DNA from: Rhodococcus oxybenzonivorans
Lineage (GTDB): Bacteria; Actinomycetota; Actinomycetes; Mycobacteriales; Mycobacteriaceae
Direction: 5' to 3'
NCBI RefSeq assembly: GCF_003130705.1
Contig: NZ_CP021354.1
Location: 4,774,001-4,838,000 of the forward strand
DNA length: 64,000 nt
Below, one piece after another: positions 17,455-33,572 of the stretch. Numbering within the stretch: the first letter of the stretch is position 1; every line of letters starts with the position of its first letter. The notes beneath the pieces are model-generated. The model was not told the origin of the DNA, did not search any database, and saw nothing but the letters and a program-made list of their open reading frames with translations. Position numbers and translations under genes: made by a program.

Positions 17455-18282
17455 TTAAAGCTCGTAAGAAGCGAGCGCGGCGGCAAAATCGTCTGTTTCG
17501 ATCCTTGCCTTGACCGCCGCAAGGAATCGTCCGGCGTCTGCGCCATCAATCAACCTGTGGTCGTATGTCAGCGGCAGATAGCACACGGATCGGATCGCGA
17601 CGGTCTCCTCTCCATCCGGGCGAACCACTACTTTCGGTTCCCGCCGGATGGCACCCGTTCCGAGGATTGCCACTTCGGGCTGATTGATGATCGGGGTGTC
17701 GAGCAGGGAACCGGCACTGCCGATGTTGGTGATCGTGAAAGTACTTCCACTCAGCTCAGCGGGCTTGATGGCGTTGGACCGCACCCTCTCCGCGATGTCG
17801 GCAATGCTCCGGGACAACTCGGGTAGCGTCAGGGTCTGCGCATCCCGAATCACGGGTACGAACAGGCCCCGCGGCGTGTCCACGGCAATACCCAGGTTCA
17901 CGGTGTCGTGGAACGTCACATGGGTGGCGGCGTCGTCGACCGAGGCATTGAGCTGGGGGAAGTGCCCGAGAACTTCGACTGCCGCCTTGGCGAAGAACGG
18001 CAAATAGGTCAACGAGATACCTTCTACCTGCTTGAAGGCCTCTTTCGTCGCGTTTCGCAGTTCGGATACTGCGGTGACGTCCACCTCCTGCACCGTTGTG
18101 AGTTGAGCGGAAACACGCAACGACTCGAGCATCCGAGTGGAGATCACTTTTCGCAGCCGGGAGAGCTTCACCGTCGATCCTCGCTGAGGATGTTCAGTGC
18201 TGGACCGAAGGACCTGCACGGGATCAGCGTCGGGCACCGTGTCGATTGTTCCCGTTTGTTGCGTTCCGGACGTCTCGTTCAT
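17455..18282 (-). CDS. 2-oxoacid dehydrogenase E2 acyltransferase, catalytic domain only
   Basis: The acyltransferase part of a 2-oxoacid dehydrogenase complex, which moves an acyl group from lipoamide to CoA. 275 residues, from an ATG six bases after GAGGAG. The trimeric catalytic fold starts near residue 35 (R-L-R-K-V-I-S-T-R-M) and ends with the active-site D-H-R-L-I-D-G (His ~242, Asp ~246). A normal E2 has one to three lipoyl domains and a peripheral-subunit-binding domain in front. Here there are only about 35 unstructured residues. The 77-residue lipoyl protein at 31274-31507 is the obvious missing part. The gene is downstream of the B12 mutase, 99 bases after its stop. Confidence 0.88.
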   Translation of the reverse strand: MNETSGTQQTGTIDTVPDADPVQVLRSSTEHPQRGSTVKLSRLRKVISTRMLESLRVSAQLTTVQEVDVTAVSELRNATKEAFKQVEGISLTYLPFFAKAAVEVLGHFPQLNASVDDAATHVTFHDTVNLGIAVDTPRGLFVPVIRDAQTLTLPELSRSIADIAERVRSNAIKPAELSGSTFTITNIGSAGSLLDTPIINQPEVAILGTGAIRREPKVVVRPDGEETVAIRSVCYLPLTYDHRLIDGADAGRFLAAVKARIETDDFAAALASYEL

Positions 18283-18381
18283 CACTGTCTCCTCGTCGAT
18301 CGCCGACATCGTTGGTCGGCAGGTAGCGATACTTCGGTCGAGCCGCCCAGGCGTCCAGCAGAAGCACCGTCGGCCATCCGG

Positions 18382-20037
18382 TCAGTGGAAGTCGAAGGGC
18401 GACTCGACCACTCCGAAGGGGTCGTATCTCATCCCACAGGCCAGACGCTGGACACCGGACACCTCTCCGACCGTCGCGCCGACGAGGAAGGCGTCGGCCA
18501 TTGCATCCTGGGTGTTGCGGTCACCGCGTGCGGAGTCGAACACTGCCCGCAGTGCCTGTTCGAGACGGTGTGGGTCCCTCGCCGACTTCTCGCGGATGAA
18601 GCGCTCGACGTGGGCGTCGACGCTGGCTTCGTCGACCTTGAAGCGGTGTGGAGGGTTCTCGCGGGAAGGCTGGAAGGCGTTGACTCCGATCACGATCCGC
18701 TCTCCGGACTGTATTTCCTCCTCACGTAGGAGGTTCTCGTCGTCCATCATCGACTCGATCGACCCATCCTCGATGCCACGCAGCAGTCCGTGGTCCTCGA
18801 TCTTCGCCAACAGCGCCAGGGCATCGGCCTCGACTCGGTCGGTAAGTGCCTCGACGTAGTAGCTTCCACCGAGTGGGTCGGCGGTGCGTGCCGCACCGAC
18901 CTCATGGGCGAGTATCAGCTGGGTCCGGGTCGCAAGCTCGCGGGCCTCGTGTGTCGGTATGCCGATCGGCTCGTCGAAGGTGCAGGTTTCTACGGATTGC
19001 ACTCCACCGAGGATCGCGGCGAGGGTTTCGATCGCGGCCCGAGTGAGATTGTTGAGGGGCTGCTGGTAAACCAGTGAACGACCGGAGGTGTGGCAGGCGA
19101 TGCGAAGCCGCATGCTGCGCGGGTCGGTGGCGCCGAACTCCTCTTTCATCGTGCGTGCCCAGATCCTCCGGAGCGCACGGAATTTTGCGACCTCCTCGAA
19201 CAGGTCGATATCAGCGGTCGAGACCCAGGCCATCCTCGGTGCGACCTCGTCGATTCGTACGCCACGTTCGGTGAGGTCGGTAAAGGTCTTCCGGACGATG
19301 GCCATACCGAGTGCGATCTCGCCAACCGGTGTGGTTCCGCGTTCGCGCAGGTTGTACGCCTGCGGGAACCCGCAAGACCATTTCGGGGTGTTGCGAGCGA
19401 CAAACTCCAGAGTGTCGATCGCGAGACGGTGACCGAACTCGGGTGAGACGAATTTCTGTCCGCCGCCGTCCAGGTTGAGCCGGAGATAGTCCGGCATGTG
19501 TGAGCCGTGCACATCGCTCAGCGACAATCCGTGCTTGCGCGCATACGCAACGACCATCGGATAGATGTTGAACGTGACGTGCCAGGCGACGTCGGTTTTC
19601 GTGATGTCGATGTGCGCGAGAAGTCGCTCGAGGTCATTGATACTCGACACCGACGCACCCTCGAGCCCGACATCGGGACGCAGCACAGGGTGGTCAGGAT
19701 CCAGGCCCTGGGTGGAGACTGTGTCGAGTACGACGTCGACCGCCGCGGACCCGGCCTTCAGCGACTGGGCGATACCATCGGCCGTGTCCTCGGGACTTCC
19801 GTAGCCGACGATGTTGCGGAGAGTCCACATTCGGCTCCGGTACATCTGCGGAAACGATCCGCGTGTGTAGGGGAACGTGCCCGGATCACCGAGCGCCTCG
19901 TCGTACGCGGGGTCGGGCTCGTCGGGCCTATAGAAATTTTCAGTAGGCGTGCCCGACCACGTCGTTGTGCGGGACAACTTGACCGAAACCTCGGACAAAT
20001 CCTCGTCGGCGTGTCCGTTTTGCTGCGAAGTCACCAT
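18382..20037 (-). CDS. Coenzyme B12-dependent acyl-CoA mutase, large subunit (2-hydroxyisobutyryl-CoA mutase-like)
   Basis: The substrate-binding TIM-barrel subunit (551 residues) of a two-subunit adenosylcobalamin mutase. The family signature T-R-G-S-F-P-Q-M-Y-R-S-R-M-W-T-L-R is at residues ~58-74. The specificity residue after R-N is Ile76, aligning with Tyr89 of methylmalonyl-CoA mutase, Phe80 of isobutyryl-CoA mutase and Ile90 of 2-hydroxyisobutyryl-CoA mutase. The second hallmark of that last enzyme, Asp117, aligns with Val103 here. The acid handled is therefore probably branched or hydroxylated, not methylmalonyl-CoA. The start is ATG 20037 or the GTG one codon on. The B12-binding subunit lies 64 bases upstream and the GTPase chaperone diverges beyond it. 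Confidence 0.87.
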   Translation of the reverse strand: MVTSQQNGHADEDLSEVSVKLSRTTTWSGTPTENFYRPDEPDPAYDEALGDPGTFPYTRGSFPQMYRSRMWTLRNIVGYGSPEDTADGIAQSLKAGSAAVDVVLDTVSTQGLDPDHPVLRPDVGLEGASVSSINDLERLLAHIDITKTDVAWHVTFNIYPMVVAYARKHGLSLSDVHGSHMPDYLRLNLDGGGQKFVSPEFGHRLAIDTLEFVARNTPKWSCGFPQAYNLRERGTTPVGEIALGMAIVRKTFTDLTERGVRIDEVAPRMAWVSTADIDLFEEVAKFRALRRIWARTMKEEFGATDPRSMRLRIACHTSGRSLVYQQPLNNLTRAAIETLAAILGGVQSVETCTFDEPIGIPTHEARELATRTQLILAHEVGAARTADPLGGSYYVEALTDRVEADALALLAKIEDHGLLRGIEDGSIESMMDDENLLREEEIQSGERIVIGVNAFQPSRENPPHRFKVDEASVDAHVERFIREKSARDPHRLEQALRAVFDSARGDRNTQDAMADAFLVGATVGEVSGVQRLACGMRYDPFGVVESPFDFH

Positions 20038-20101
20038 TGCTCCATCCGCCCTGACCGTACTGATTCACTGTTCGGCGCCAACCCTTGTGTCGGCCCCCGC
20101 G

Positions 20102-20524
20102 TCACGCGTTCGGCTCCGAGGCCGGCGCCGGGGCGAAGGTTCGATCGATGAACTCGAGGATCTGCGGCTTGTCCGAGCCCGGCCCGAAAACACCGGCAAC
20201 ACCCATCGCCTCGAGCGTCGGCACATCCTCGGGATGTATCAAACCCCCTGCCACCACCGCGATCTCACCACCGCCGACATCGCGAAGGGCATCGATCAGT
20301 TCCTGCACCCGCCGCACGTAGTCCCCGGTGCTGAAACTGACACCGACAAAGTCTGCATCCTCACTGACGGCCACGGAGGCGAGTTGCCGTGCAGTGTTGT
20401 GCTCACCCAGATAGACAACCTCGAGACCATGGTCCCGGAAAATTCGAGCCAAGGTACGAATACCCTTGCTGTGCTTGTCGGAGGCCAGCATGCCCAGGAC
20501 ACATCGGATCTTTCGTGTGTTCAC
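20102..20524 (-). CDS. B12-binding small subunit of acyl-CoA mutase
   Basis: A Rossmann-like cobalamin-binding subunit of 140 residues, the usual length for the HcmB/IcmB-small type. The base-off B12 motif D-K-H-S-K-G (DxHxxG) lies near residue 15 and supplies the lower axial histidine. The second G-G motif (V-V-A-G-G-L-I) is near residue 90. The GTG at 20524 is preceded by GGGAG at eight bases. A longer frame starting inside the operator region is unlikely. It is the first gene of the mutase-E2 operon, followed by the large subunit. Confidence 0.88.
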   Translation of the reverse strand: MNTRKIRCVLGMLASDKHSKGIRTLARIFRDHGLEVVYLGEHNTARQLASVAVSEDADFVGVSFSTGDYVRRVQELIDALRDVGGGEIAVVAGGLIHPEDVPTLEAMGVAGVFGPGSDKPQILEFIDRTFAPAPASEPNA

Positions 20525-20545
20525 CGAGTACTCTCCCTTACTGTC

Positions 20546-20568
20546 GTGCATGCACTTTAGCATGCAGT
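20546..20568. promoter_or_regulatory. Operator candidate between mutase operon and MeaB (two GCATGC cores)
   Basis: The 71-base gap between the divergent B12-subunit and GTPase genes holds the palindrome GTGCATGCAC (20546-20555) and a second GCATGC core centred 12 bp away. Both resemble the island-wide decamer TTGCATGCAA, so both operons could be controlled from here. Confidence 0.55.
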
Positions 20569-20595
20569 AGAGTCGACTGAAAGGAGAGTTTCACA

Positions 20596-21534
20596 ATGGA
20601 ATTGACTGACCTCATAACCCGCGCTCGCCGGTCAGAGGCGCGCGCACTCGGCCGGCTGATATCACTGGTGGAGAACGAATCCCCGCAGTCCCGTGAAATA
20701 GACGCGGAACTCGCGCCCCACACCGGCAGCGCGCACATTGTCGGCCTCACCGGACCGCCGGGAGTCGGCAAGTCCACGTCGGTGACAGCACTCGTCTCCG
20801 AATTGCGGCGCCGAGGCAGAACAGTGGCAGTACTCGCGATCGACCCCAGCTCGCCCTACACGGGCGGCGCCCTGTTGGGAGATCGCGTCCGGATGCAAAG
20901 CCACTCAACAGACCCCGGGGTTTACATCCGGTCCATGGCGAGCAGGGGAAGCCTGGGCGGCCTCTCCGCAACCGCCACAGCATCGCTCCGGGTGCTCGAT
21001 GGGATCGGCTTCGACGTCATCCTCGTCGAAACGGTGGGTGTCGGTCAGTCGGAGGTCGACATCTCGGCTGTCGCCGACACGACGATCGTTCTACTGGCTC
21101 CGGGAATGGGTGACGAAGTTCAGGCCTCCAAGGCCGGCGTTCTCGAGGTCGGTGACATCTTTATCGTCAACAAAGCCGACCAGGGAGGCGCCGAGTCGAC
21201 CCGACGCCAACTCCGGTTCATGATTGGCGGTAACGACCACGATGCCTCGACCTGGCTACCCCCCGTCACACTGGCGGTAGCCCTCTCCAGCAAAGGATTC
21301 GGTGACATCGTCGACGCGATCGACAGCCATCGCATCCACCTCACTGCCTCTGGCGAACTCGAACGACGTCGCACCCGCCGCGCACGCCGTGAGATCGAAG
21401 AGCTCACCATGCAGCTGATACGAGCGCGCCTCCACGCTGGCCCACACCTGGCCAAGCTCGATGCGCTCGCCTCCGACGTGGTCTCAGGCTCTACAGATCC
21501 CTACTCGGCCGCGGTGGAGCTGGCCGGGCAGTGA
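20596..21534 (+). CDS. meaB: MeaB/ArgK-type G3E GTPase, mutase chaperone
   Basis: A P-loop GTPase of 312 residues that loads adenosylcobalamin onto B12 acyl-CoA mutases and protects or reactivates them. Walker A is G-P-P-G-V-G-K-S-T near residue 55. The D-P-S-S-P-Y-T-G-G-A-L-L-G-D-R stretch, V-E-T-V-G-V-G-Q-S-E switch region and N-K-A-D specificity motif are all intact. AAGGAGAG precedes the ATG by about nine bases. It is divergent from the mutase subunits across a 71-base shared control region, which supports this mutase as its client. Confidence 0.92.
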   Translation: MELTDLITRARRSEARALGRLISLVENESPQSREIDAELAPHTGSAHIVGLTGPPGVGKSTSVTALVSELRRRGRTVAVLAIDPSSPYTGGALLGDRVRMQSHSTDPGVYIRSMASRGSLGGLSATATASLRVLDGIGFDVILVETVGVGQSEVDISAVADTTIVLLAPGMGDEVQASKAGVLEVGDIFIVNKADQGGAESTRRQLRFMIGGNDHDASTWLPPVTLAVALSSKGFGDIVDAIDSHRIHLTASGELERRRTRRARREIEELTMQLIRARLHAGPHLAKLDALASDVVSGSTDPYSAAVELAGQ

Positions 21535-21560
21535 CGATGGCGGCTCCTCCGACTTACCCC

Positions 21561-21586
21561 ACCCGACTACCTGCCGGCAGTCGGGT
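21561..21586. terminator. Hairpin between convergent meaB and dihydrolipoamide dehydrogenase genes
   Basis: ACCCGACT (21561-21568) pairs with AGTCGGGT (21579-21586) around a CTGCCGGC-containing loop. It sits in the 114-base gap between two converging stops, so it can act on both strands. Confidence 0.5.
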
Positions 21587-21648
21587 GCCGAAAGATGCCC
21601 GTCCGCAGTGTAAGTCGATTCTTTGGCCAGTCGCGACGGGCAATCTTT

Positions 21649-23022
21649 TCAAGCGTGCACGTGGAGCGGTTTGCCGGACACTGCCAGCAATGCCTCGCCG
21701 AGCGCCTCCCCCTGGGTTGGATGAGCGTGTACGAACTTCGCGGCCTCCGATGCCTTGACCTCGAGGTTGTACATCAACTGAGCCTCGCCGATCAGTTCAC
21801 CTACCCGGTCACCGACCATATGGACGCCCACGACAGCGCCCGTGGGCGCAACCACCAATTTGACTACACCGGTCGTCTTCAAGATCTGACTCTTCCCATT
21901 TCCGGCGAGATCATACGTCACAGTATCGATATCGTCACCGAACCGCCCACGTGCTGCAGCCTCGGTCACGCCAACCGACGCTACCTCGGGATGCGAGTAG
22001 ATGACGCGGGGAATACCAGTCTCGTCGATGCGGTCAGGACTGCATCCGGCAACGTCCTCGGCGACGAAGATCCCCTGTTGAAACCCTCGATGCGCCAGCT
22101 GGAGTCCCCGCACAATGTCGCCGACCGCGTAGATGCTCGGCACTGCCGTGCGCAAGCGGTCATCGGTCGCCACGAAGCCGTCTTCGATCGTTATCCCCGC
22201 TGCCTCGAATCCCATCCCATTCGTATTGGGAACACGCCCGACCGCGACCAGAACGACGTCGGCGTCGAGAACGTCACCCGAGTCGAGGGTGACGGTCACC
22301 GCATCACCATCCTGCACCACCGCGGTGACCCGTGTGCCCGTCTTCGCCGTGATCTTGCGCCGCCTGAACGCCCGCTCCAGGTACGTCGACATCGCCTCGT
22401 CCTCATGCGGCACGAGGCGCGGCAACGCCTCGACGATTGTGACGGCGGCTCCGAAGGACGACCAGATGCTGGCGAATTCGACGCCGATGACGCCGCCTCC
22501 GAGAATGATTGCCTTTTTCGGCACCGACGGCAGCACAAGCGCCTCGTCGCTGGTAATCACTCGACCGCCGAGAGGAATGCCGGGCAATCCCTTCGGGATC
22601 GATCCGGTTGCGAGGACGATGTGTGCGCCCGTGATCAGTTCGCCTTCTACCTCAATGCCGTTCGGCCCGACCAAGTGACCGCGACCGTCCACCACGGTGA
22701 TGCCGTGCGAGCCGATGAGGCCCTGCAGTCCCTTGTGCAGCCGGGTGACGATCGAGTTCTTGTAACTGTGTACCTTGCCGACATCGATCCCGCTGAAGGT
22801 GGCGGCGACGCCGAATTGTGTTGCAATCTTGGCTGTGTCCGCTACTTCGGCTGCATGCAACAACGCTTTCGTCGGAATACACCCTCGGTGCAGGCACGTG
22901 CCCCCGAGGTCACCCTCCTCGATGAGTATTACCGAGCGGCCCAACTCGGCCGAGCGTATTGCGGCGGCGTACCCGCCGGAACCACCACCGAGGATGACGA
23001 CATCTGCTGAACGTGGGGTCAT
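21649..23022 (-). CDS. lpd: Dihydrolipoamide dehydrogenase (E3)
   Basis: An FAD disulphide oxidoreductase that re-oxidises dihydrolipoamide with NAD+. 457 residues from an ATG preceded by AGGAGTGTCTC. The FAD-binding V-I-L-G-G-G-S-G-G is at the N-terminus. The redox-active pair is in G-G-T-C-L-H-R-G-C near residue 40, the NAD-binding I-L-G-G-G-V-I-G-V-E is near 175, and the dimer-interface H-P-T-Q-G-E is at the C-terminus. As no other E3 gene is in the window, it probably serves the E1 (31528-33572) and split E2 of this island. The F420-type gene lies 239 bases upstream. That gap holds nothing else I recognise. Confidence 0.93.
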   Translation of the reverse strand: MTPRSADVVILGGGSGGYAAAIRSAELGRSVILIEEGDLGGTCLHRGCIPTKALLHAAEVADTAKIATQFGVAATFSGIDVGKVHSYKNSIVTRLHKGLQGLIGSHGITVVDGRGHLVGPNGIEVEGELITGAHIVLATGSIPKGLPGIPLGGRVITSDEALVLPSVPKKAIILGGGVIGVEFASIWSSFGAAVTIVEALPRLVPHEDEAMSTYLERAFRRRKITAKTGTRVTAVVQDGDAVTVTLDSGDVLDADVVLVAVGRVPNTNGMGFEAAGITIEDGFVATDDRLRTAVPSIYAVGDIVRGLQLAHRGFQQGIFVAEDVAGCSPDRIDETGIPRVIYSHPEVASVGVTEAAARGRFGDDIDTVTYDLAGNGKSQILKTTGVVKLVVAPTGAVVGVHMVGDRVGELIGEAQLMYNLEVKASEAAKFVHAHPTQGEALGEALLAVSGKPLHVHA

Positions 23023-23261
23023 GAGACACTCCTGACTGAACAGAATTAGCAAAGAGCCACGCATAGGCATCTGCGCGTGCGAGCAAGCAGTGACGGTGCG
23101 CACCCGCACGTGAGACTTACCGTCGTTCCAGTACGTGTGCGCTCATCAACCCCAACACTGCCGCTCTTCGATAACGGCTTGGCATGGATAGCGAAACGCG
23201 TTGCGACGCTGTAGCAGCCGACGACACCGGAGCTTCCCTGAGTACGGCCGGGGCTCGAGCC

Positions 23262-24191: not shown

Positions 24192-24288
24192 AGACACCTG
24201 ACTAGATCATCTTCCTGTGCGCGTTCGAGGCTGGGCGAGATTCGGGCGGTACATGTGTTGCAGGCGACGGTAGCACGTGACGAACATT

Positions 24289-24298
24289 TTGCATACAT
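24289..24298. promoter_or_regulatory. Decamer operator upstream of F420-type gene
   Basis: TTGCATACAT, within ATTTTGCATACATTA, matches the island decamer TTGCATGCAA at eight of ten positions. It lies in the 167-base gap upstream of the minus-strand LLM gene. Confidence 0.55.
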
Positions 24299-25353: not shown

Positions 25354-26841
25354 TCAGGCGGTGACCGCGGTGGGAGCCCCTACATCGACGGCAGCGGACG
25401 GCGCCGTCCCCGCCGTATCACGCGCGAGTGCCGCCGCATTGCGGCCTGCGATCCGCCCGTAGGTGAGGCAGTTCGCGATCGAGTTCCCGCTTCCGACGTA
25501 CATTTTGCCGATGACGCCACCGGCGCACTCACCCGCGGCGAACAAACCCGGCACCGGATGCTGATTGCTGCTGAGCACCCGTGCCTCCGAATCGACCGCT
25601 GGTCCACAGGCGGTGAGCGCAATCAGCGACAGCCGCAATTCGCAGGCGTAGAAGGGCCCGGTCTCGACGGGACGCATCTGCTCGCCGTCCTTGAGGAAGA
25701 GCGAGTCGTGCTTCTGGTGAGCGTCCTCGTTGTATCGTTCGATAGTGCCCACCAAGTTCGACGCCGGCACTCCGAGCTGCTCGGCCAGATCGGAGAGCGT
25801 CTCGGCAACCTTCACCTTGCCTTCGGCGATCGCCTCGTCGATCACCGGCTCGAGCCAGTGAGACCTTGGCACACCCGGAAGGTTCACCTTGGTTGCCGCC
25901 TCTGTGCTTTCCGGGTTTGCAGCCCGCTTGGCAGCATGATCGAAGATGGCATAGACGCGGTTACCCTGCGCGCGAACGATTGGGTCCACGACGCTGTAAG
26001 GCGTCATTTCATCCATGAAACGGCGACCGCTGGAATTCACGATCACCAGCCAACCGGGAAGGTACGCCTGCGGGTCGCGGTTGAAGTCCGCGATCAAAAC
26101 CCACCCTCCTCGGTCCACTCCTTCGATGTAAGCATCAACGGGTTCTACGAGGTTGAAGATATCTCCAGACCTCGGGAATGCGCCGCCTATGTACCAACTC
26201 TTCTCGTCCGCGGCCGCGAGCGGCAGGTACTGCTCATGTAGCTCAGGGTTGCCCGCGAAACCTCCCATGGCGAGCACGACAGCGTCCGCGCGTACGACCT
26301 CGTCGCCGACCGCAATACCACGGACACGTCCGCCTTCAACCACGAGGCGGTCCACGCGTTGGCTCAGGGCGATGTCGATATTCGGCTGCTTGCGGATGTG
26401 GCGGGTCAGCACGTCGATGATCTCCTGCCCCTGTCCAGGAACGGAATGGCCCCGCGGTGCGCGCTCTTCACCTGCGCTGATGAGCTGGTTCTGGAAAGTG
26501 ACGCCGAGATCACGGATCCACTCGAAAGTGTCCGGAAGCTCGTCCACCAGGCGCCGAACCACCGAAGGAGTCACGTCCCAGTGGTTGGCCAGCATGTAGT
26601 CCTGGAACAGCTCGTCAGGATGATCATCGAGGCCGTTGGCGCGCTGCAGGCTCGTTCCTGCGGCCATCATAATTCCGGTCGAGAGTCGGCTGGCACCTCC
26701 CAGAATCGTCTCACCCTCCACTAGGAGGACTTTCGCGCCGTCCGACGCGGCCTCCAGCGCCGCCGACATCCCCGCCATTCCCGAGCCGACGACAATCACG
26801 TCTACGTCGCTCGCGGCAACGTCGTTGTCGAGTGTGCTCAA
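25354..26841 (-). CDS. FAD-dependent oxidoreductase, fumarate reductase / 3-ketosteroid-1-dehydrogenase-like
   Basis: A 495-residue flavoprotein of the FAD_binding_2 superfamily. The dinucleotide fold V-I-V-V-G-S-G-M-A-G is at residues ~15-25, with E-G-E-T-I-L-G-G-A-S next. A cap domain fills the middle, and the C-terminal FAD segment reads G-L-F-A-A-G-E-C-A-G-G-V-I-G near 435. Relatives dehydrogenate or reduce alpha,beta-bonds next to a carbonyl, as in KstD and fumarate reductase, so ring desaturation is a reasonable guess. It is the first gene of an operon with the SnoaL-like and ferredoxin-fold genes. Its composite promoter at 27084-27121 implies an unusually long leader of about 235 bases. 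Confidence 0.82.
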   Translation of the reverse strand: MSTLDNDVAASDVDVIVVGSGMAGMSAALEAASDGAKVLLVEGETILGGASRLSTGIMMAAGTSLQRANGLDDHPDELFQDYMLANHWDVTPSVVRRLVDELPDTFEWIRDLGVTFQNQLISAGEERAPRGHSVPGQGQEIIDVLTRHIRKQPNIDIALSQRVDRLVVEGGRVRGIAVGDEVVRADAVVLAMGGFAGNPELHEQYLPLAAADEKSWYIGGAFPRSGDIFNLVEPVDAYIEGVDRGGWVLIADFNRDPQAYLPGWLVIVNSSGRRFMDEMTPYSVVDPIVRAQGNRVYAIFDHAAKRAANPESTEAATKVNLPGVPRSHWLEPVIDEAIAEGKVKVAETLSDLAEQLGVPASNLVGTIERYNEDAHQKHDSLFLKDGEQMRPVETGPFYACELRLSLIALTACGPAVDSEARVLSSNQHPVPGLFAAGECAGGVIGKMYVGSGNSIANCLTYGRIAGRNAAALARDTAGTAPSAAVDVGAPTAVTA

Positions 26842-27083
26842 TGGTCTCTCCTATCGATCGGTGTTGCGGTTCAACGTGACTGAATGCACGCCAAACAGCG
26901 TGAGGCTCTACTCTGCATGGTGTTAGTAAGAGGTCGAACTTGTTCGGTTGCACGCACCCATGGCCGCCTTGACGGACCGGCCTGCATTCCGATTTCGTCC
27001 GCTTGCCCGCGGAAACGTATGGGTGACCCTTCTCCGAGGTTTTCGAAGGTCCGCCCGAAACGAAACAAGCGGCGGTGTCCCTA

Positions 27084-27121
27084 ATCTTATGCAAAATAAT
27101 CGCCATGTGTCCAGGGCCACA
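27084..27121 (-). promoter_or_regulatory. Composite oxygenase-type promoter (flavoprotein operon)
   Basis: Read on the minus strand: the box TGTGGCCCTGGACACA (27121-27106), 11 bases, then TTGCATAAGA (27094-27085), inside which TAAGAT (27089-27084) fits an actinobacterial -10. The 40 bases 27088-27127 match 43095-43134 (reverse strand) at 39 of 40 positions. No -35 consensus is present, which suits activator-dependent transcription. Confidence 0.65.
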
Positions 27122-27410
27122 TTCTCGACTCGAAGTCGAGGGAATCTTCTTCATGAAGACGGCCGCGATCAGGGCGCCAGTTGTCATGGCGGAGAAGCAA
27201 TGCCAGAGTTGACCGCCGGATCGAGAAGCCCTCTACACACCAATCTGGGATTTCCAAGACGTCGACGGCATCGACGTCCGCCGCAGTAGTGCCGAGCGGT
27301 TACGACTCTGGAGTGCGTCTCGACAGAGTTCGTCCCGTACCGCAGTTTGGCGTCATTGAATAGGAGTCGCATCGGAGCGTGGGTGGACAACGCTGCTGCC
27401 GATACAGTTC

Positions 27411-27445
27411 GGGGGCATTCATCACACGGTGCGATGAATGCCCCC
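27411..27445 (-). terminator. Hairpin after the Rieske oxygenase gene
   Basis: GGGGGCATTCATC (27411-27423) pairs perfectly with GATGAATGCCCCC (27433-27445) around a nine-base loop. It begins 13 bases after the Rieske stop on the minus strand. There is no T-run. Confidence 0.65.
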
Positions 27446-27457
27446 AGACACATGCGA

Positions 27458-28909
27458 TCAGACGCGCCCGGCGATGTAATCCATCAGCCTGGCATGGAAG
27501 TGCCGGATCCGACTCTCCTGATAGGAGGCCAGGGTGATGCCCGGCTTGGTGCGCTGTAACGCTTTGAGGCCCCGCTGAACCTGGGGCATGTTGATGCGAT
27601 CCTGGTTGACCACGGCGCTCAAGTTCCCCAGTTCCGGGGCATCGAGCCAGTCGCCGTCGCGCTCGAGCCAGTGCACCGGTGCCGGCTTGGGTCGCGGTCC
27701 TCCCTCCGGCACCGGTGTGAGGTAGAAGATCTCGAGGATGCAGGAGTCGGGATCCTCACCATTGGGCCGGAAGCGGTAGTAGATGTTCGTCATCCCCGAG
27801 TCCCACGGAAAAAAATTGGGGAAGACGAAATACTGCACGGCGTCCATGAGCTGATATGCCGGCACGGAGGTGAGATCCAGACCCAGGCGGGGCGCGAGAT
27901 CCTCCCGGATCGTGTTGACGATGCGCTTGCGCGCCGTCATTCCCTCGGGCAGGCCTTCGAGCATCTCCCTCGGCACATCACGCGAGTTCTCACCGAGCCG
28001 CTCCTCGTAGAACGTACGGGCTGCAAGGTAGCTCTCGTAGATGTCCTCTTCCTCCAGCTCACCGAGCGTGCTGCTGCTGACACCGCGAGCTGACAGGACA
28101 CGGTTGACGTTCTTCCCGAACAGATCAACCTGACTCATGTAGTCCTGGATGCTCGGCGCCGTCTGCGGGTGAGTTGCCGGCAGGTGGTAGGCCTCGATGA
28201 AGGCCTCGAGGGCAACCTTCCAGTTCGCCGACACCACCTGGGCAACGTGCGCCGACTTGAAGCGCGCTTCGTAGCTGGTGTGCTTGAAGTGGTCGGGAAT
28301 GGGTGCCAGAAAGTCCTCGAGCGGTTCGCAGTCCGGGTCCATATTGATGAAAACGAATCCGCCCCAGGTACCTACGCGCGCCTCGGGCAAGGCAAACCTC
28401 TCACGGTCCACGTGTTTGAAGTCCCACTCGCTACATGGCAGCCGTTTGATCTCTCCGTCCAGCTCCCATGTCCAGCCGTGGAACGGGCAGCGAAATTCGG
28501 GGACCTTCCCGTCCGTGGCCCGCAGTCGGCGACCACGATGAAGACAGGCATTCTGGAGGGCCTTGATCTCCCCGCTCGCAGTGCGGGTGATGATGAAGGA
28601 GTCATTGACGATCTCGTAGACGATGTGGTCGCCGGGCTCTGGAATCTCTTCCTCCCGACACACCATCTGCCACGCCTTACGCCAGACGTGTTCGACTTCG
28701 AGCTCGAGGAATTCGCGCGACGTGTATCGGTCGATCGGAATGTCCTCGTCACCGAGGTCCGTCCACGACGGCCGCATGAACTCCGGAATCTCGTCGCCGT
28801 CCTCGCGGATGACTTGCTGGTAGGTCTTGCCCACTCGCCCGGCAACCTTCTGCTCGATCAGGGCTTCTGCGTCGGTCTGTTCGGACGACGGTTCGGAAAG
28901 CTGCGTCAT
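27458..28909 (-). CDS. Rieske non-haem iron oxygenase, alpha subunit
   Basis: The terminal oxygenase component of a Rieske system, 483 residues. The [2Fe-2S] ligands are Cys122 and His124 (C-L-H-R-G) and Cys141 and His144 (C-P-F-H-G-W). The mononuclear-iron histidines are His242 and His247 in E-A-Y-H-L-P-A-T-H. The bridging acidic residue, normally Asp before A-Y-H, is Glu239 here. No beta subunit is encoded nearby, so an alpha-only enzyme is likely. Electrons probably come from the ferredoxin at the head of the operon. AGGAG lies nine bases before the ATG. The substrate is unknown, and cyclic acids or their CoA esters are plausible. Confidence 0.9.
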   Translation of the reverse strand: MTQLSEPSSEQTDAEALIEQKVAGRVGKTYQQVIREDGDEIPEFMRPSWTDLGDEDIPIDRYTSREFLELEVEHVWRKAWQMVCREEEIPEPGDHIVYEIVNDSFIITRTASGEIKALQNACLHRGRRLRATDGKVPEFRCPFHGWTWELDGEIKRLPCSEWDFKHVDRERFALPEARVGTWGGFVFINMDPDCEPLEDFLAPIPDHFKHTSYEARFKSAHVAQVVSANWKVALEAFIEAYHLPATHPQTAPSIQDYMSQVDLFGKNVNRVLSARGVSSSTLGELEEEDIYESYLAARTFYEERLGENSRDVPREMLEGLPEGMTARKRIVNTIREDLAPRLGLDLTSVPAYQLMDAVQYFVFPNFFPWDSGMTNIYYRFRPNGEDPDSCILEIFYLTPVPEGGPRPKPAPVHWLERDGDWLDAPELGNLSAVVNQDRINMPQVQRGLKALQRTKPGITLASYQESRIRHFHARLMDYIAGRV

Positions 28910-28935
28910 ATCGGAATGCTCCTCTCGCTAACGAA

Positions 28936-29136
28936 TCACTTGTCCGGGCCGATGTAGGCACCAGCGACGTAGTCGAGCATCACCTGGTCCGCATAGCTCA
29001 GGTCGCCGGAGACCCGCGTCCCGTCCCGCTCGAACACGCCGCTCTGGCCGGTCGCGGGATCTTCGACTGCCACGGTCCCGTCGGGCAGCAGCGCGAAAAC
29101 CATGTTCGTGCCGCGCTGCACCAATTTCTTACTCAT
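28936..29136 (-). CDS. 66-residue conserved-looking small protein between ferredoxin and Rieske oxygenase
   Basis: A very short gene with an excellent AAGGAG six bases before its ATG, placed between ferredoxin and oxygenase genes in the same direction. The protein is acidic towards its end and has a pattern of short strands: M-V-F-A-L-L-P-D-G-T-V-A-V-E, then S-G-V-F-E-R-D-G-T. The C-terminus is D-Y-V-A-G-A-Y-I-G-P-D-K. I recognise no family. The position suggests an accessory of the oxygenase, for instance an assembly factor or small subunit. Confidence 0.65.
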   Translation of the reverse strand: MSKKLVQRGTNMVFALLPDGTVAVEDPATGQSGVFERDGTRVSGDLSYADQVMLDYVAGAYIGPDK

Positions 29137-29203
29137 CTGTCGCTCCTTAGGCGTATACCGCGGTTTGTCTTCGATCAGGCGTAGTGCTCGGCCCTGGCCA
29201 CCA

Positions 29204-29533
29204 TCAGGCCGTCTTCCGCACACCGCGTTTGACGACCACTAGATCGCCTACCGGCCGGGCCTGGCATGCCAGACGCAAGGTGCCCTCGTTGACGGGGTCC
29301 AGGACGGCTTCTAATCCCTCCGCCTCGAACGGTTCGACGGAGTTCAGATGTTCTGCCCCCTCGATCACCGACATGAAGCACATGTGGCAGGTGCCCATGC
29401 CCTCGCAGGTCGTCGGCCACCGCACGCTCTGCTCGACAGCCGCCTCGTAGACGCTCTGACCGCGGGCAACGTCGAGGACTATGCCTTTGGGCTGGACCGT
29501 GACCGTGACATTGTCGCCTCCTGGCTGCTGCAT
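29204..29533 (-). CDS. [2Fe-2S] ferredoxin (plant/xylene-monooxygenase type)
   Basis: A 109-residue ferredoxin with the C-E-G-M-G-T-C-H-M-C cluster loop (cysteines near 43, 49, 52) and a fourth cysteine in L-A-C-Q-A near 88, giving the CxxxxxCxxC...C spacing. AAGGAG four bases before the ATG fixes the start. It is the first gene of the ferredoxin-small protein-Rieske operon and the likely electron donor to the oxygenase. No dedicated reductase is in this operon. The reductase at 43651-44895 could serve both oxygenases. Confidence 0.9.
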   Translation of the reverse strand: MQQPGGDNVTVTVQPKGIVLDVARGQSVYEAAVEQSVRWPTTCEGMGTCHMCFMSVIEGAEHLNSVEPFEAEGLEAVLDPVNEGTLRLACQARPVGDLVVVKRGVRKTA

Positions 29534-29577
29534 CTGTCTCCTTCGAATGCGTATGCGGCTTCAGACTGGTGTGCTTT

Positions 29578-29615
29578 ATTGTATGCAAAATATTCGTCGT
29601 GTGTCCAGGTTCACA
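29578..29615 (-). promoter_or_regulatory. Composite oxygenase-type promoter (Rieske operon)
   Basis: On the minus strand: TGTGAACCTGGACACA (29615-29600), 11 bases, then TTGCATACAA (29588-29579) overlapping the -10 TACAAT (29583-29578). Box centre to -10 centre is 27 bp, identical to the promoters at 27084 and 43101. The predicted leader to the ferredoxin ATG is about 38 bases. Confidence 0.7.
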
Positions 29616-29633
29616 ATTCTTACGGGGAAATGC

Positions 29634-30473
29634 CTACACAAGGCCGAGCGTCGCCGGGGCGTTGAGCTCGAGACGCTTGCGCACACCGTCAGTGGTGTCC
29701 GCTTCGACCGACACCACCAACTGGTCGACCCCGGCGGACTCGTACGCACTCACCAGTTCCGTGGTGAGGCGCGCACGGGGAGTCACCGTGATCTGGAAGT
29801 CCTTCAGATCGCGTCCGATCGCGTCTGCGTGCCGGACCATCAGCTCGCGTGCCTCCGCAACCTCGTCCGGGGTTTGACCGAAGCCGTACCACCCCGTTCC
29901 CAGTGCGGCTGCATCACGCAACGCCAGCGGTGTGGCGCCACCGAGGACCAGGCGCGGACCGCCTTCCTGGATCGGACGCGGATACGCGTCGATACCGTCG
30001 AATTCCACGAAGTCTCCGTGAAATTGGGGGTCGTCCATTGTCCACATCGCACGCAACGCTGCAAGATGCTCTCGAAAGCGAGCTCGCCGACGTTCCATCG
30101 GGACGCCGGTTGCTCGGAACTCGGGAACGACGTACCCCACGCCGACTCCGAGGACCAACCGCCCGCGGGAGAGAACGTCGACCGTGGCGGCAGCCTTCGC
30201 AAGTTGAACGGGGCCTCGCTGGGTCAACACGAGGATTCCGGTGCATAACTCGATGCGGTCGGTGAACGCCGCGAGGTACCCCAGGGTGACCAGCGGGTCC
30301 ATGATGGGCCAGTCCGGGTCGAGCGGCGGTTTGGGTTGCCGCGGCTTCGGCAAGATCGCATGGTCGGCGGTCCACAGCGAGTGGTACCCGAGCTCCTCGC
30401 CTCGTGCTGCGAGTTCGCCCGCTTCGTCAGAGGCCATACCGCCGACATTGGCTCCGAAAAACCCGAGCTTCAC
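29634..30473 (-). CDS. F420-dependent LLM-class oxidoreductase, second copy
   Basis: A luciferase-like oxidoreductase of 279 residues. The N-terminus K-L-G-F-F-G-A-N-V-G-G, the L-W-T-A-D-H-A-I-L-P segment near residue 35, R-L-V-L-G-V-G-V-G-Y near 105 and R-L-V-L-G-G-A-T-P are typical. The start is GTG with AGGAGG six bases upstream. It is the last gene of the E1-lipoyl-crotonase operon. It shares a fold with the gene at 23262-24191 but little sequence, so the two likely act on different intermediates. A reaction such as F420-dependent oxidation of an alcohol or lactone is possible but not shown. Confidence 0.82.
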   Translation of the reverse strand: MKLGFFGANVGGMASDEAGELAARGEELGYHSLWTADHAILPKPRQPKPPLDPDWPIMDPLVTLGYLAAFTDRIELCTGILVLTQRGPVQLAKAAATVDVLSRGRLVLGVGVGYVVPEFRATGVPMERRRARFREHLAALRAMWTMDDPQFHGDFVEFDGIDAYPRPIQEGGPRLVLGGATPLALRDAAALGTGWYGFGQTPDEVAEARELMVRHADAIGRDLKDFQITVTPRARLTTELVSAYESAGVDQLVVSVEADTTDGVRKRLELNAPATLGLV

Positions 30474-30515
30474 GTTGTGCCTCCTGCAAAAAAAGTGCGC
30501 AGACTTTGCGCGTCG

Positions 30516-31265
30516 CTACGAGATTCGGTCCCGCACCGCGTCTCGCGCCCGCGCGCGATCAGGGTGCTGGGATGTTTCGTCGAACGCCTGGGTCTCCAAT
30601 TCCAACTGCTCGGCTAGGTGACGCCGGTGGGAGTCCTTCAGCAGTCTCTTGGTCACAGGTACTGCCAGGCCGGGCATATACGCCAGACGGGTTGCGAGGT
30701 CCACGGCGCATGCGAGTAGCTCGCCATGAGGTACGACCTCGTTGACCAGACCCCAGGAGTGTGCCGCGGCAGCATCTAGTCGCGCGCCCCCGAGCAGAAG
30801 CTCGAATGCCCGGGTGTAACCCAGGACGCGCACGAGGTGGTGGGTCGCACCGTTGTCAGGTGACAGTCCGACCGGCGCGAACCCGGCCGAGAACGAGGCG
30901 CGATCGGACGCCAATCGGATGTCGGCGGCCGCCGCGAGGGATAGCCCCGCACCCAGCGCCGGACCGTTGACGGCCGCGATCAGCGGGATATCGAGCGCGT
31001 CCAGTTGCTGTATGACCGGGTGGTAGAAGCGCCGCATTCGCCGGGACGACGGCGCATAGTCCGACTTGGGTGCCCGAATGTCGCCGCCGGCGCAGAAACC
31101 CTTCCCCGCTCCCGTCAACACCACGGCTTTCACAGTGCCATCCGCAGCGGCGAGGACGTCGGAAAGCGCATCGAACAACTCGGGCACAACAGCATTGAGC
31201 CGCTCCGGGCGGTTCAACGTCAGGACGAGCACCGCGTCACGCATTTCACTCAGGACGAGGGACAT
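30516..31265 (-). CDS. Enoyl-CoA hydratase/isomerase family protein (PaaG-like active site)
   Basis: A crotonase-fold protein of 249 residues. The oxyanion-hole strands F-C-A-G-G-D (near 67) and A-L-G-A-G-L-S are present. At the positions of the two catalytic glutamates of classical hydratases I read F-A-P-V-G-L-S-P-D-N-G-A. The Asp in P-D-N-G fits PaaG/ECI-type isomerases better than hydratases. A double-bond or ring isomerisation on an acyl-CoA is the best guess. The ATG at 31265 is just after the lipoyl-protein stop, with only a weak ribosome site, so it may be coupled to it. Confidence 0.8.
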   Translation of the reverse strand: MSLVLSEMRDAVLVLTLNRPERLNAVVPELFDALSDVLAAADGTVKAVVLTGAGKGFCAGGDIRAPKSDYAPSSRRMRRFYHPVIQQLDALDIPLIAAVNGPALGAGLSLAAAADIRLASDRASFSAGFAPVGLSPDNGATHHLVRVLGYTRAFELLLGGARLDAAAAHSWGLVNEVVPHGELLACAVDLATRLAYMPGLAVPVTKRLLKDSHRRHLAEQLELETQAFDETSQHPDRARARDAVRDRIS

Positions 31266-31273
31266 CGAAGGCG

Positions 31274-31507
31274 TCAGGATTCTTCGATGGTCGCCACGAC
31301 GTGGCCGACGGGGTAGGCCGTGTCCACCTCCGCGATGACTCGCAATACCCCGTTGGCCGGGGATTCGACCTCGAGCTGGGCCTTGTCTGCCTCGAGGACG
31401 TAAATTACCTGGCCCTCGGCTACCTGATCGCCGTCGTCGGCGAGCCATTCGGCGACATACCCCTCGGTCATCTCCATCGATGCCTGTGGGATGCGGATCT
31501 CCAACAT
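31274..31507 (-). CDS. Free-standing lipoyl (biotinyl_lipoyl) domain protein
   Basis: A single 77-residue lipoyl domain and nothing else. The swinging-arm lysine is Lys42 in E-A-D-K-A at the tip of the hairpin, and the flanking strands (I-P-Q-A-S-M-E-M-T-E-G-Y-V and G-V-L-R-V-I-A-E-V) complete the flattened barrel. The D-K-A context is lipoyl-type, not the M-K-M of biotin carriers. It lies between E1-beta and the crotonase in the E1 operon. It supplies the lipoyl arm that the E2 at 17455-18282 lacks. AAGGA lies seven bases before the ATG. Confidence 0.88.
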   Translation of the reverse strand: MLEIRIPQASMEMTEGYVAEWLADDGDQVAEGQVIYVLEADKAQLEVESPANGVLRVIAEVDTAYPVGHVVATIEES

Positions 31508-31527
31508 GTTGTTCCTTCGGTCGTGAG

Positions 31528-32556
31528 TTAGGCGAGCAGGTCGCGTGCGGCCTGGATCATCCGCGCAGCGTCGGGGACGTACTGCGCCTCGAGGGGGCCG
31601 CCCGGTGTGGGTGCGTATGGCGCACCGAGTCGACGAACCGGCTTGTGCAGTTCACCGAGCAGTTCCTCGTGGATCTGGCTGGACACCTCGGCACCGAAAC
31701 CGCCGAACTGCACAGCGGCGTGAGCGACGATTGCCCGCTTGGTCTTCGCGACGCTCTGGAGGACGGTGCTGATATCCAGTGGGACCAGCGACCTCAGGTC
31801 AACGACCTCGACGTCGACGCCTTCCGCCGCCAGCGCCTCGGCGGCCTCGAGGGCATCGAGCACCGCGCGACCGTAGGTGATGATGGAGAGGTCGGCACCC
31901 GGGCGCGCAATAGACGCACGCCCGAGGGGTACGCGGTAGTCCCCCACCGGTACGTCTCGCTTCTGCGGATCGAACACCACCCGGGACATTTCCATCACGA
32001 CGCACGGATCCTCGTCGTAGATGCTGCTGAGCAGCAGTCCCTTGGCATCGAGCGGATTGCTGGCGCACACCACCTTCAGCCCTGGGACATTGGCCAACCA
32101 GGCCTCGAGGGACTGCGAGTGCTGCGCACCCATGTTGCCCCGGCCGGCACCGACGACCGTGCGGATGGTGATGGGCACGGCGGTGCGACCGCCGGACATG
32201 TAGCGCAGCTTCGCAGCATGGTTGGCGATCTGATCCATCGCGACACCGAAGAAGTCCATGAGCATGATTTCGACGATGGGCCGCATACCTGCGAGACCGG
32301 CGCCGATGGCCGTGCCGATGAGCGCCTGCTCCGCGATAGGAGTGGCCCGAACACGTTCCGTGCCGAACTTGGTCGACAGCCCCTTGGTCATTTTGAATAC
32401 GCCACCGGCGGGGTCTGCGATGTCCTCTCCCAGCATGAACACTGACGGGTCAGTGCTGAGGGCGTAGTCGAAGGCATCGAGGCAGGCCTGCTGGAAGTTC
32501 ATTTCCTGGAACTGCACCGTGGTCGATGCGTCCTTAGTAATCTGTGTCACCGTCAT
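31528..32556 (-). CDS. 2-oxoacid dehydrogenase E1 component, beta subunit
   Basis: The pyrimidine-binding and C-terminal transketolase-like half of a heterotetrameric E1, 342 residues. Landmarks are F-M-L-G-E-D-I-A-D-P-A-G-G near residue 40, R-V-R-A-T-P-I-A-E-Q-A near 70, and D-L-R-S-L-V-P-L-D near 250, which carries the E2-interaction domain. The style is that of acetoin or branched-chain dehydrogenases, but the 2-oxo substrate cannot be told from sequence. Its ATG overlaps the E1-alpha stop (ATGA), so the subunits are translated in equal amounts. Confidence 0.92.
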   Translation of the reverse strand: MTVTQITKDASTTVQFQEMNFQQACLDAFDYALSTDPSVFMLGEDIADPAGGVFKMTKGLSTKFGTERVRATPIAEQALIGTAIGAGLAGMRPIVEIMLMDFFGVAMDQIANHAAKLRYMSGGRTAVPITIRTVVGAGRGNMGAQHSQSLEAWLANVPGLKVVCASNPLDAKGLLLSSIYDEDPCVVMEMSRVVFDPQKRDVPVGDYRVPLGRASIARPGADLSIITYGRAVLDALEAAEALAAEGVDVEVVDLRSLVPLDISTVLQSVAKTKRAIVAHAAVQFGGFGAEVSSQIHEELLGELHKPVRRLGAPYAPTPGGPLEAQYVPDAARMIQAARDLLA

Positions 32557-33572
32557 CGCCGTGAGTCCTCCTGGTTGCCGTACACATCGCGAAGCATTTC
32601 TTCGGGAGGGGTGGGGTCCGAGCTTCGCGCAAACTCCATCGCATCCCGGACTTCCTCGTCGACATCGGCGTCGATCGAGCTCAACGTGTCTTCGGAGTGC
32701 CAGCCCTCCTGCAGAATCGAGAGGCGGAACGCGACGACGGGGTCTCGCGCCTCAGCAGCCTTTCGCTCCTCGGCCGGGACATACCGGTTTTCGGAACCGA
32801 ATGAGTGGCCCTTGGTGCGGTAGGTAACGGACTCCACGAACACCGGCCCCTGGCCCGCGCGAGCCTCTTCGACGGCCGCCTGGACCGCGGCATGAATCTC
32901 GAGAGGCGCGAATCCGTCGACTCGCACCGCGCGCATCCCGACTGCTTCCGCCCGGCTGGTGAGCTCGGTGTTGCGGGTGTAGTCGGAGATGCTGGTGTGC
33001 TCGGCCCACTGATTGTTCTGGCATACGAATACCAGCGGAAGGTTCCAGATCGCCGCGAGGTTCAGGCTTTCGGCGATCGCACCAATGGATGTGGCTCCAT
33101 CACCGAACGTGGTGACGGCGACCTGTCCGTTGCCCTCGAGCTGAGCAGCTAAACCGAGTCCACACGCAATGGGGGCACCGGCACCGACGATTCCCGTCGT
33201 CGCCATGAGGCCGAGCTCCGGGGCGGACAGGTGCATCGAACCGCCTTTACCTTTGGACGTTCCGGTAACGCGCCCGAGGAACTCCGCGGCAATTCCACGC
33301 AGTGGCACACCTTTCGCGACGACGTCGCCTAGGCAGCGGTACGTTGTAGAGAGGTAATCACTCGGCTGCATCGCCAGGCCGATCGACGCGCACGTCGCCT
33401 CCAGGCCGCGAATCGGGTAGGACGGGAACCGCGCCTCACCGGTTGAGAGCACCTTCTGCAGGGCGTTTTCCAGCGCCCGCATACGTCTCATGCTCCGGTA
33501 CAGGTTCAGAGCGACGTCAGCCGGCGTACCGACCGACTCCGCCGCGGCCACCGATGTCGGTGAAGAGACCAC
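32553..33572 (-). CDS. 2-oxoacid dehydrogenase E1 component, alpha subunit
   Basis: The thiamine-diphosphate-binding E1 half, 339 residues. The TPP/Mg motif runs from G-D-G-A-T-S near residue 160 to Q-N-N-Q-W-A near 190. The phosphorylation-loop histidine region (R-T-K-G-H-S) is near 265. It decarboxylates a 2-oxoacid and transfers the acyl group to lipoamide. The GTG start at 33572 has AAGGAG eight bases upstream. Codons further upstream do not look coding. It heads the operon E1-alpha, E1-beta, lipoyl protein, crotonase and LLM enzyme. Confidence 0.92.
   Translation of the reverse strand: MVSSPTSVAAAESVGTPADVALNLYRSMRRMRALENALQKVLSTGEARFPSYPIRGLEATCASIGLAMQPSDYLSTTYRCLGDVVAKGVPLRGIAAEFLGRVTGTSKGKGGSMHLSAPELGLMATTGIVGAGAPIACGLGLAAQLEGNGQVAVTTFGDGATSIGAIAESLNLAAIWNLPLVFVCQNNQWAEHTSISDYTRNTELTSRAEAVGMRAVRVDGFAPLEIHAAVQAAVEEARAGQGPVFVESVTYRTKGHSFGSENRYVPAEERKAAEARDPVVAFRLSILQEGWHSEDTLSSIDADVDEEVRDAMEFARSSDPTPPEEMLRDVYGNQEDSRR

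Follow-up and report, generated by a model that had tools for sequence, protein, structure and literature searches.

The window analyzed here is a stretch of 64,000 nucleotides (nt) from the soil-dwelling bacterium Rhodococcus oxybenzonivorans (GCF_003130705.1; contig NZ_CP021354.1, positions 4,774,001 to 4,838,000 of the forward strand; genome size 8.0 Mb, 4 contigs), in which genes of the 2-oxoacid dehydrogenase families were found with the lipoyl domain and the acyltransferase domain on separate proteins. Four genes lie end to end on the minus strand, namely, a thiamine diphosphate (ThDP)-dependent 2-oxoacid dehydrogenase E1α of 332 amino acids (aa) with a GTG start assigned by the gene caller (32553..33551; PF00676, E 9.9e-68 on the longer frame 32553-33755), E1β of 342 aa (31528..32556; PF02779 and PF02780), a lone lipoyl protein of 77 aa, LIP, with Lys42 in the motif EADKA (31274..31507; PF00364 (Biotin_lipoyl), E 7.6e-17), and an enoyl-CoA hydratase (ECH) family protein (30516..31265; PF00378). 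E1α and E1β overlap, whereas E1β and LIP are 20 nt apart and LIP and ECH 8 nt apart. Beyond them lie genes for an LLM-type protein and a ferredoxin-like protein (both named by eye and from homologues), for a protein of 66 aa, and for a Rieske oxygenase. The second group, also on the minus strand, consists of a B12-binding mutase subunit (20102..20563; PF02310), an acyl-CoA mutase large subunit (18382..20037; PF01642, E 9e-132), and, as the final gene of the run, an E2 catalytic domain of 284 aa, E2c, which has neither a lipoyl domain nor a peripheral subunit-binding domain (17455..18309; PF00198 only, E 8.7e-76). The mutase ends 72 nt upstream of E2c. Alongside lie a 457-aa dihydrolipoyl dehydrogenase, E3, on the minus strand (21649..23022; TIGR01350, 459.6 bits against a cut-off of 408.8 on the 486-aa frame 21649-23109) and a divergent MeaB-type mutase chaperone GTPase on the plus strand (20596..21534; TIGR00750 above cut-off).

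The earlier note on this DNA had described E1α, E1β, and a lone 77-residue lipoyl protein in one operon, an E2 catalytic domain with an intact active site in the B12 mutase operon about 13 kb away, and an E3 between them. All of these genes were found as described, the distance from LIP to E2c being 12.96 kb. Genes were called using a simple caller and small seed hidden Markov models trained on high-GC sequence (locus L228 yielded zero calls), and many neighboring genes were named by eye from their sequences, without a family call. An Rfam scan returned one tRNA.

The domain content of LIP was determined using Pfam at E ≤ 0.001. PF00364 was the only firm domain, accompanied by a weak sub-cut-off match to PF13533, and no match to the GCV_H family was obtained. 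Against PRK14875, a 372-position model of the AcoC-type acetoin dehydrogenase E2, LIP aligned with positions 5-79 only (64.9 against a cut-off of 307). As PF00364 spans both lipoyl and biotin carriers, the possibility that LIP is the biotin carrier of a carboxylase was considered, and other short PF00364 proteins of the same genome do resemble biotin carriers: three (L030-L032) adjoin carboxylase-type genes, and a 71-aa one (L033) shows, by eye, the biotin-type motif ESMKMEI. However, the motif of LIP is EADKA and not AMKM, and its neighbors are E1 and ECH, with no carboxylase recognized nearby. Therefore, this identity was rejected and is regarded as very improbable, and Lys42 is predicted to be lipoylated. 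Among the LIP-profile matches in the genome, LIP was the sole lone one, the ten others lying within frames of at least 363 codons. A homologue search with LIP alone returned 5 matches, LIP itself among them, and a search of 296 genomes of the phylum returned, at E ≤ 1e-11, 25 matches spread over 24 genomes and with few exceptions placed within long frames.

In the case of E2c, the active-site motif DHRLIDG is intact. The stop-to-stop frame is 308 codons long, and thus no in-frame lipoyl domain can be hidden in it; no match to the peripheral subunit-binding domain PF02817 was found at E ≤ 0.001. An AlphaFold2 model built from 20 sequences (mean predicted local distance difference test score, pLDDT, 81.2) was confident over most of residues 44-280, while residues 1-43 scored mostly below 50 and showed no fold. 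By sequence and by fold, the closest solved relatives were catalytic domains of actinobacterial AceF/DlaT, with an alignment almost gapless through the C terminus. According to PMC10415282, actinobacterial AceF is trimeric owing to a C-terminal insertion. Because E2c aligns with this protein, it is likely a free trimer; one DlaT structure entry among its fold matches is titled a hexamer. A search of 394 genomes (P0088) returned only the window's own E2c at E ≤ 1e-92. The genome contains seven PF00198 matches, of which five lie in frames with a lipoyl domain, one is a Kgd-like frame of 1271 codons, and one is E2c. An E1-type gene adjoins four of the five lipoyl-bearing E2s in the stretches viewed (two of these being long single-chain E1s named by eye).

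A heteromeric ThDP-dependent E1 of alpha and beta subunits was confirmed by PF00676, PF02779, and PF02780, and E1α scored below the equivalog cut-offs for pyruvate dehydrogenase. At E ≤ 1e-60, E1β has three matches in the genome, namely, that of the window and two beside lipoyl-bearing E2s. The E3 of the window is a putative partner of E1 and LIP, a homologue with 58-59% identity being part of the five-gene run of L109 described below. Its closest relative among four genomes searched, with 81% identity, was found in a genus mate (G024; L234:9120-10490). Its neighbors there are a LipA-like gene and what reads, by eye, as a gcvP-gcvT-gcvH-glyA run, which weakly suggests a setting where such an E3 would serve a free lipoyl protein.

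To place these genes in a wider context, a species-genome collection was scanned with an E1β alignment, and the best 80 of at least 574 relatives were kept. The profile consisted of 9 E1β sequences, 7 of which were known beforehand to sit beside LIP, and several rows are near copies; accordingly, the shares given below are not population frequencies. A LIP gene was found within 9 kb of E1β in 55 of the 80 loci, after two biotin-type matches (L146 and L213) had been dropped from 57; two of the 55 (L207 and L211) run into contig ends and may represent the beginning of a full E2, and both lie on the full-E2 side of the E1β tree. Classified by neighbors, 43 loci had a lone LIP without a nearby lipoyl-less E2, 12 had LIP together with a lipoyl-less E2, 12 had a full-length E2, 1 had only a catalytic-domain E2, 11 had neither, and 1 ended at a contig edge. 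"Neither" refers to the stretch at hand (up to 9 kb), and some loci are short, one (L214) ending 39 bases past the E1β match. LIP was adjacent in 39 of the 43 lone-LIP loci and within 9 kb in 3, the remaining one (L158), which a length cut had missed, being classed by inspection. E1β and LIP overlapped or were separated by no more than 60 nt in 45 of the 50 cases measured, the median gap being 4 nt. Moreover, 55 LIP sequences were extracted from 54 loci (one LIP locus, L171, gave none), 52 of which are 76-81 aa long; of the remaining three, two are truncated at contig ends. The lysine is kept in all 55, preceded by Asp or Glu in 54 and by Asn in one (L161). In Actinomadura physcomitrii (L183), two E1-LIP sets lie about 8 kb apart with different LIPs.

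Similar rows were seen in public records. Two Paraburkholderia plasmids carry E1α, E1β, a 76-aa lipoyl protein, and an E2 of 250-275 aa in a row. Streptomyces sp. NBC_00564 has a Rieske oxygenase, a 2Fe-2S protein, an FAD protein, E1α, E1β, and LIP, with no annotated E2 in the 31 kb viewed. A Thermus plasmid carries E1α, E1β, and LIP, and on a Sphingobium plasmid LIP lies about 4 kb from E1. A Rhodococcus plasmid with E1αβ had no LIP in 21 kb. As the gene order recurs in two phyla, the arrangement in the window is more than chance. The nine genomes of "neither" loci that were searched for LIP gave a related picture: seven hold a lone LIP-like frame elsewhere (80-126 codons, 99-124 bits), and no frame of more than 200 codons exceeded 88.2 bits. 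One of the seven is Mycolicibacterium P9-22, where the frame lies about 32 kb from E1. In the genome of L176, LIP and a lipoyl-less E2 are adjacent to each other (L232) but far from E1.

The genes around LIP also recur. Within 8 kb of the LIP loci, a Rieske oxygenase was found in 33 of 55, an AMP-ligase in 30, and a flavoprotein in 19, whereas the same neighbors occurred at 4, 1, and 1 of the 12 full-E2 loci and at 4, 3, and 2 of the 11 "neither" loci. These neighbors hint that the LIP-linked E1 systems may act in the breakdown of cyclic compounds.

Three loci bear on whether the two operons of the window belong together. At L109, in a genome of the same order (G093), E1α, E1β, LIP, E3, and a lipoyl-less E2 are consecutive, with 43, 52, 45, 58-59, and 54% identity to those of the window. 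At L102, from the same genus, a span of 7.3 kb contains, on its two strands, homologues of the mutase (60%), B12 subunit (50%), MeaB (45%), ferredoxin-like protein (41%), E1α (49%), and E1β (56%), with no LIP; the joint presence of mutase and E1 homologues ties the two window operons to each other. The third is Mycolicibacterium P9-22, whose E1β is the nearest relative of that of the window (71%). One block there (L230) holds E1α, E1β, a 67-aa gene, and a Rieske oxygenase at 59, 71, 52, and 65% identity. A second block (L229), about 32 kb off on the same contig, holds AtuA (68%), an AtuA partner (74%), an acyl-CoA dehydrogenase (78%), and an AMP-ligase-like gene (27%), together with LIP (50%), ECH (58%), and a LipA-like gene (80%). 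Thus, LIP need not adjoin E1.

In the second P9-22 block, the LipA-like gene lies downstream of LIP with two genes between, and this nearness of a lipoyl synthase gene favors lipoylation of LIP. The window contains an additional lipoyl synthase gene, LipA, named by eye, on the minus strand at 51750..52748, with 77-79% identity to two other LipA-like genes of the genome, in which at least three such genes were seen, and with its 80% homologue in L229. It possibly serves LIP. Extra lipoyl-synthase-like genes near LIP clusters were noted at this position (20 kb from LIP), at L107:14027-14872, and at L229:10933-11865, in Rhodococcus and Mycolicibacterium. In the survey, no LipA match was found within 8 kb of LIP in any of the 55 LIP loci.

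The histories of E1β, E2, and the lipoyl domain were compared using trees. In the E1β tree (117 rows), a branch supported at 100/99 separates 79 rows (61 lone LIP, 17 neither, and 1 full E2) from 38 rows (30 full E2, 5 lone, and 3 neither). In the single full-E2 row among the 79, L208, the E2 is at a distance of about 4 kb, and a separate E1α-E1β-LIP set is present in the same genome, about 17 kb off. Among the five lone rows outside the branch, two are the contig-end loci L207 and L211, and three (L075, L122, and L135) are lone LIPs. Judged from this tree, a free-standing lipoyl protein has been conserved throughout much of one E1 branch and characterizes it.

In the E2 catalytic-domain tree (67 rows), the LIP-linked lipoyl-less E2s of Pseudomonadota form one clade of 13 rows (100/100), while the E2c of the window and a relative with 87% identity are nested among actinobacterial SucB/AceF-type E2s. 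The lipoyl-less state takes eight changes on this tree, at least four of them forced by well-supported branches, and some short database proteins in it may be fragments; the lipoyl-less E2 thus probably arose more than once. In the lipoyl-domain tree (99 rows, few columns), lone versus fused takes 4 changes, against an average of 31 in shuffles. This tree is poorly resolved, and LIP of the window falls nearest other lone LIPs but in no well-supported set. Accordingly, it is improbable that LIP is an N terminus that E2c has lost. The earlier note had spoken of a split E2, and in this respect it was not borne out: a single E2 gene split in two was rejected as an improbable history of the locus, as LIP groups, weakly, with lone LIPs and E2c with SucB/AceF-type E2s, so that the two appear to be of different ancestries.

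It was also considered that the separation might be an artefact of a frameshift, an assembly error, or a pseudogene, since split genes are often sequencing errors. However, LIP and E2c belong to different operons separated by 13 kb, their frames are intact with conserved motifs, and other genomes likewise contain lone LIPs and lipoyl-less E2s. The artefact was rejected, and its probability is regarded as close to nil. A locus in M. bohemicum (L231:8771-9804), where the E2 of another complex is represented by a 116-aa lipoyl piece and a 219-aa catalytic piece, may itself be a frameshift.

Taken together, the parts appear to belong with one another and the lone LIP is conserved in one E1 branch, and a carrier acting in trans is therefore the natural reading. 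We consider it likely that the window encodes a 2-oxoacid dehydrogenase-type system with a free lipoyl carrier and with E2c as the acceptor. In such a system, E1, as an α2β2 enzyme with ThDP, would decarboxylate or cleave its substrate and reductively acylate the lipoyl group on Lys42 of LIP. LIP would then diffuse to the separate E2c, by homology a free trimer, which would hand the acyl group to CoA, and afterward visit E3, where the dihydrolipoyl group would be reoxidized with NAD+. A subunit-binding domain would be unnecessary, as E1 and E3 would be untethered and LIP would be recognized as a substrate in the manner of the glycine-cleavage H-protein. The sequences themselves show the genes, the missing domains, the conserved coupling of E1 and LIP, and the repeated presence of a lipoyl-less E2 beside LIP. 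Lipoylation of Lys42, acyl transfer in trans, the absence of a stable complex, the identity of E3, and the place of E2c and E3 in the pathway of E1 are what we infer.

A broader form of this proposal may also be stated, tentatively and with more doubt than confidence. The E1 branch, which crosses phyla, may have given up the multienzyme complex, its dedicated carrier serving whichever acyltransferase is available, whether a lipoyl-less E2 trimer or a housekeeping E2. In the Rieske/flavoprotein clusters, E1 may cleave an oxidized cyclic ketone or acyloin thioclastically, and not a simple 2-oxoacid.

Several observations weigh against the free-carrier system with E2c as acceptor. One set concerns the joint occurrence of LIP and a lipoyl-less E2, for which E2 frames of more than 400 codons were not checked singly for a lipoyl domain. 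In one set of 20 genomes, 18 have LIP without an adjacent lipoyl-less E2 at the locus seen. Fourteen of these 18 show no lipoyl-less E2 (only frames of at least 405 codons or partial matches), and two are undecided: G593, whose 263-codon frame lies at the edge of a contig, and G594, whose 280-codon frame adjoins the 116-aa lipoyl piece of another complex (L231). An intact lipoyl-less E2 lies elsewhere in the other two, namely, G603, where the gene caller gave a length of 237 aa and the distance from E1 is about 41 kb, and G604 (a 266-codon frame). In a second set, a lipoyl-less E2 was found in one of five LIP genomes, that of L109. Hence E1 enzymes of this type do not require E2c, which in the window could belong to the mutase pathway. 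Moreover, P9-22, with the nearest E1β relative, has LIP yet no lipoyl-less E2. In an E1β sub-branch of 7 rows (100/99; L102, L103-L106, L074, and L155), the stretches viewed contain no LIP and no E2, and the four Rhodococcus genomes of this sub-branch that were searched (G024, G006, G019, and G026, the last being 74% complete) yielded no lone LIP. Two of the nine "neither" genomes likewise gave no comparable lone LIP-like frame, namely, L155 and also L166, in which a 95-codon frame scored a weak 44 bits. In G024, relatives of the window E3 at 60-64% identity lie directly beside PF00198 matches, and E3 is thus not specific evidence for a free-carrier system. Finally, no E1 is present in the 14 kb viewed around the 607-codon SucB/AceF-type E2 of the own genome, and this E2 could be the actual partner.

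A fixed pairing of LIP with a lipoyl-less E2 was therefore rejected, and the co-occurrence that the earlier note proposed to look for was found only in part, as the two lie near each other in 12 of 80 loci but 14 of the 18 genomes show none. E1 and LIP appear to form the steadier pair, with E2c as a third component that varies. The diffusible carrier proposed in that note is strengthened by the five-gene run of L109, by the 12 loci, and by the conservation of LIP in one E1 branch. A full-length cellular E2 may serve in the LIP genomes without a lipoyl-less E2 and could serve here. This leads to an alternative in which LIP is the true partner of E1, the acceptor is the core of the housekeeping full-length E2 (SucB/AceF type, 607 codons), and E2c performs another acyl transfer in the mutase operon. 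The 14 genomes, with two undecided, point this way, and three mycobacterial ones (G591, G595, and G597; loci L163, L186, and L192) have E1α-E1β-LIP and only two PF00198 matches, one in an E2 frame 493-641 codons long and the other Kgd-like. PMC10415282 describes actinobacterial AceF as a trimer whose lipoyl domains are believed to supply OdhA in trans. However, LIP lies near a lipoyl-less E2 in the 12 surveyed loci, L109, and L232, and the second set gave no intact lipoyl-less E2 in 13 genomes without a lone LIP at the E1 locus viewed (broken or partial pieces occur in G024, G005, and G001, and 8 of the 13 were not searched for LIP elsewhere). This alternative is judged unlikely.

It could further be argued that E1 is served in trans by the lipoyl domains of a full-length E2, LIP being vestigial or acting elsewhere, as the LIP-less Rhodococcus sub-branch and the five lipoyl-bearing E2s of the own genome would allow. 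The tight coupling of LIP to E1β in two phyla and the grouping of most lone LIPs make this improbable.

The proposed free-carrier system stands among further genes. On the minus strand, a 2Fe-2S ferredoxin-like protein (29204..29533) shows 41% identity to a 108-aa gene of L102 and to a 101-aa gene of L108, matches the same seed profile as an annotated 2Fe-2S protein of L070, and is the probable electron donor of the Rieske-type oxygenase alpha subunit (27458..28909; NCBIfam Rieske families under cut-off, 65% identity to the gene beside E1 in L230). A 66-aa protein (28936-29136) precedes the oxygenase, and its 67-aa homologue (52%) is placed alike in L230. A flavocytochrome c/ketosteroid-dehydrogenase-like flavoprotein follows on the minus strand at 25354..26841 (TIGR01813, 231.6 bits, under the cut-off of 285.45). 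At 36616-38363, neighboring genes encode AtuA and its ferredoxin-like domain separately, as in Mycolicibacterium P9-22. The nearest solved relative of the mutase by sequence is 4r3u, 2-hydroxyisobutyryl-CoA mutase. At the position of a His regarded as catalytic in methylmalonyl- and hydroxyisobutyryl-CoA mutases (YHxxEAG), the window mutase carries Asn (YNLRERG). Asn also occurs in the 60% homologue of L102 (4908-6563), which suggests an undescribed mutase subfamily. A mutase search of 249 genomes of the order returned only the own copy at E ≤ 1e-110, though this homologue is present in L102.

Tethered lipoyl domains on a large core are the textbook account of how 2-oxoacid dehydrogenase complexes work. 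A recurring natural family of free carriers, about 76-81 aa long, would provide a ready test of the need for tethering and channeling, would explain the small "biotin/lipoyl-containing" proteins annotated by E1 genes without an E2, and would supply minimal separable parts for enzymology and engineering. In the literature, viewed as titles and abstract openings, no description of a bacterial E1 with a free lipoyl protein was recognized; as subscription literature was poorly covered, this is weak evidence of absence.

The proposed system can be compared with several known ones. The pyruvate, branched-chain 2-oxoacid, and 2-oxoglutarate dehydrogenases (PDH, BCKDH, and OGDH) and acetoin dehydrogenase use the same E1αβ, E2 catalytic, and E3 families, but their E2 carries one or more lipoyl domains and usually a subunit-binding domain, as given in PMC10415282, whereas E2c has neither. 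The acyltransferase domain of OdhA/Kgd is, according to the same source, itself lipoyl-less and relies on a lipoyl-lysine in trans, which resembles the role proposed for E2c; however, E1 and E2 are fused there and the lipoyl group is thought to come from the PDH E2, whereas E1 and E2c of the window are separate genes. LbpA is described in PMC6067878 as a separate lipoyl carrier in Hdr-like sulfur oxidation. It differs in being GcvH-like and hdr-linked, and no hdr genes were recognized by eye among the calls around LIP. Archaeal 2-oxoacid dehydrogenase operons of Haloferax volcanii reportedly contain an unattached lipoyl domain beside E1 (van Ooyen and Soppa, 2007). In glycine cleavage, GcvH is a free lipoyl protein and the substrate of separate enzymes, the P, T, and L proteins. 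The chemistry is different, and LIP matches PF00364, with a weak PF13533 match, and not GCV_H; the proposed likeness, which the gene arrangement supports, lies in a small, separate lipoyl protein shared by free enzymes.

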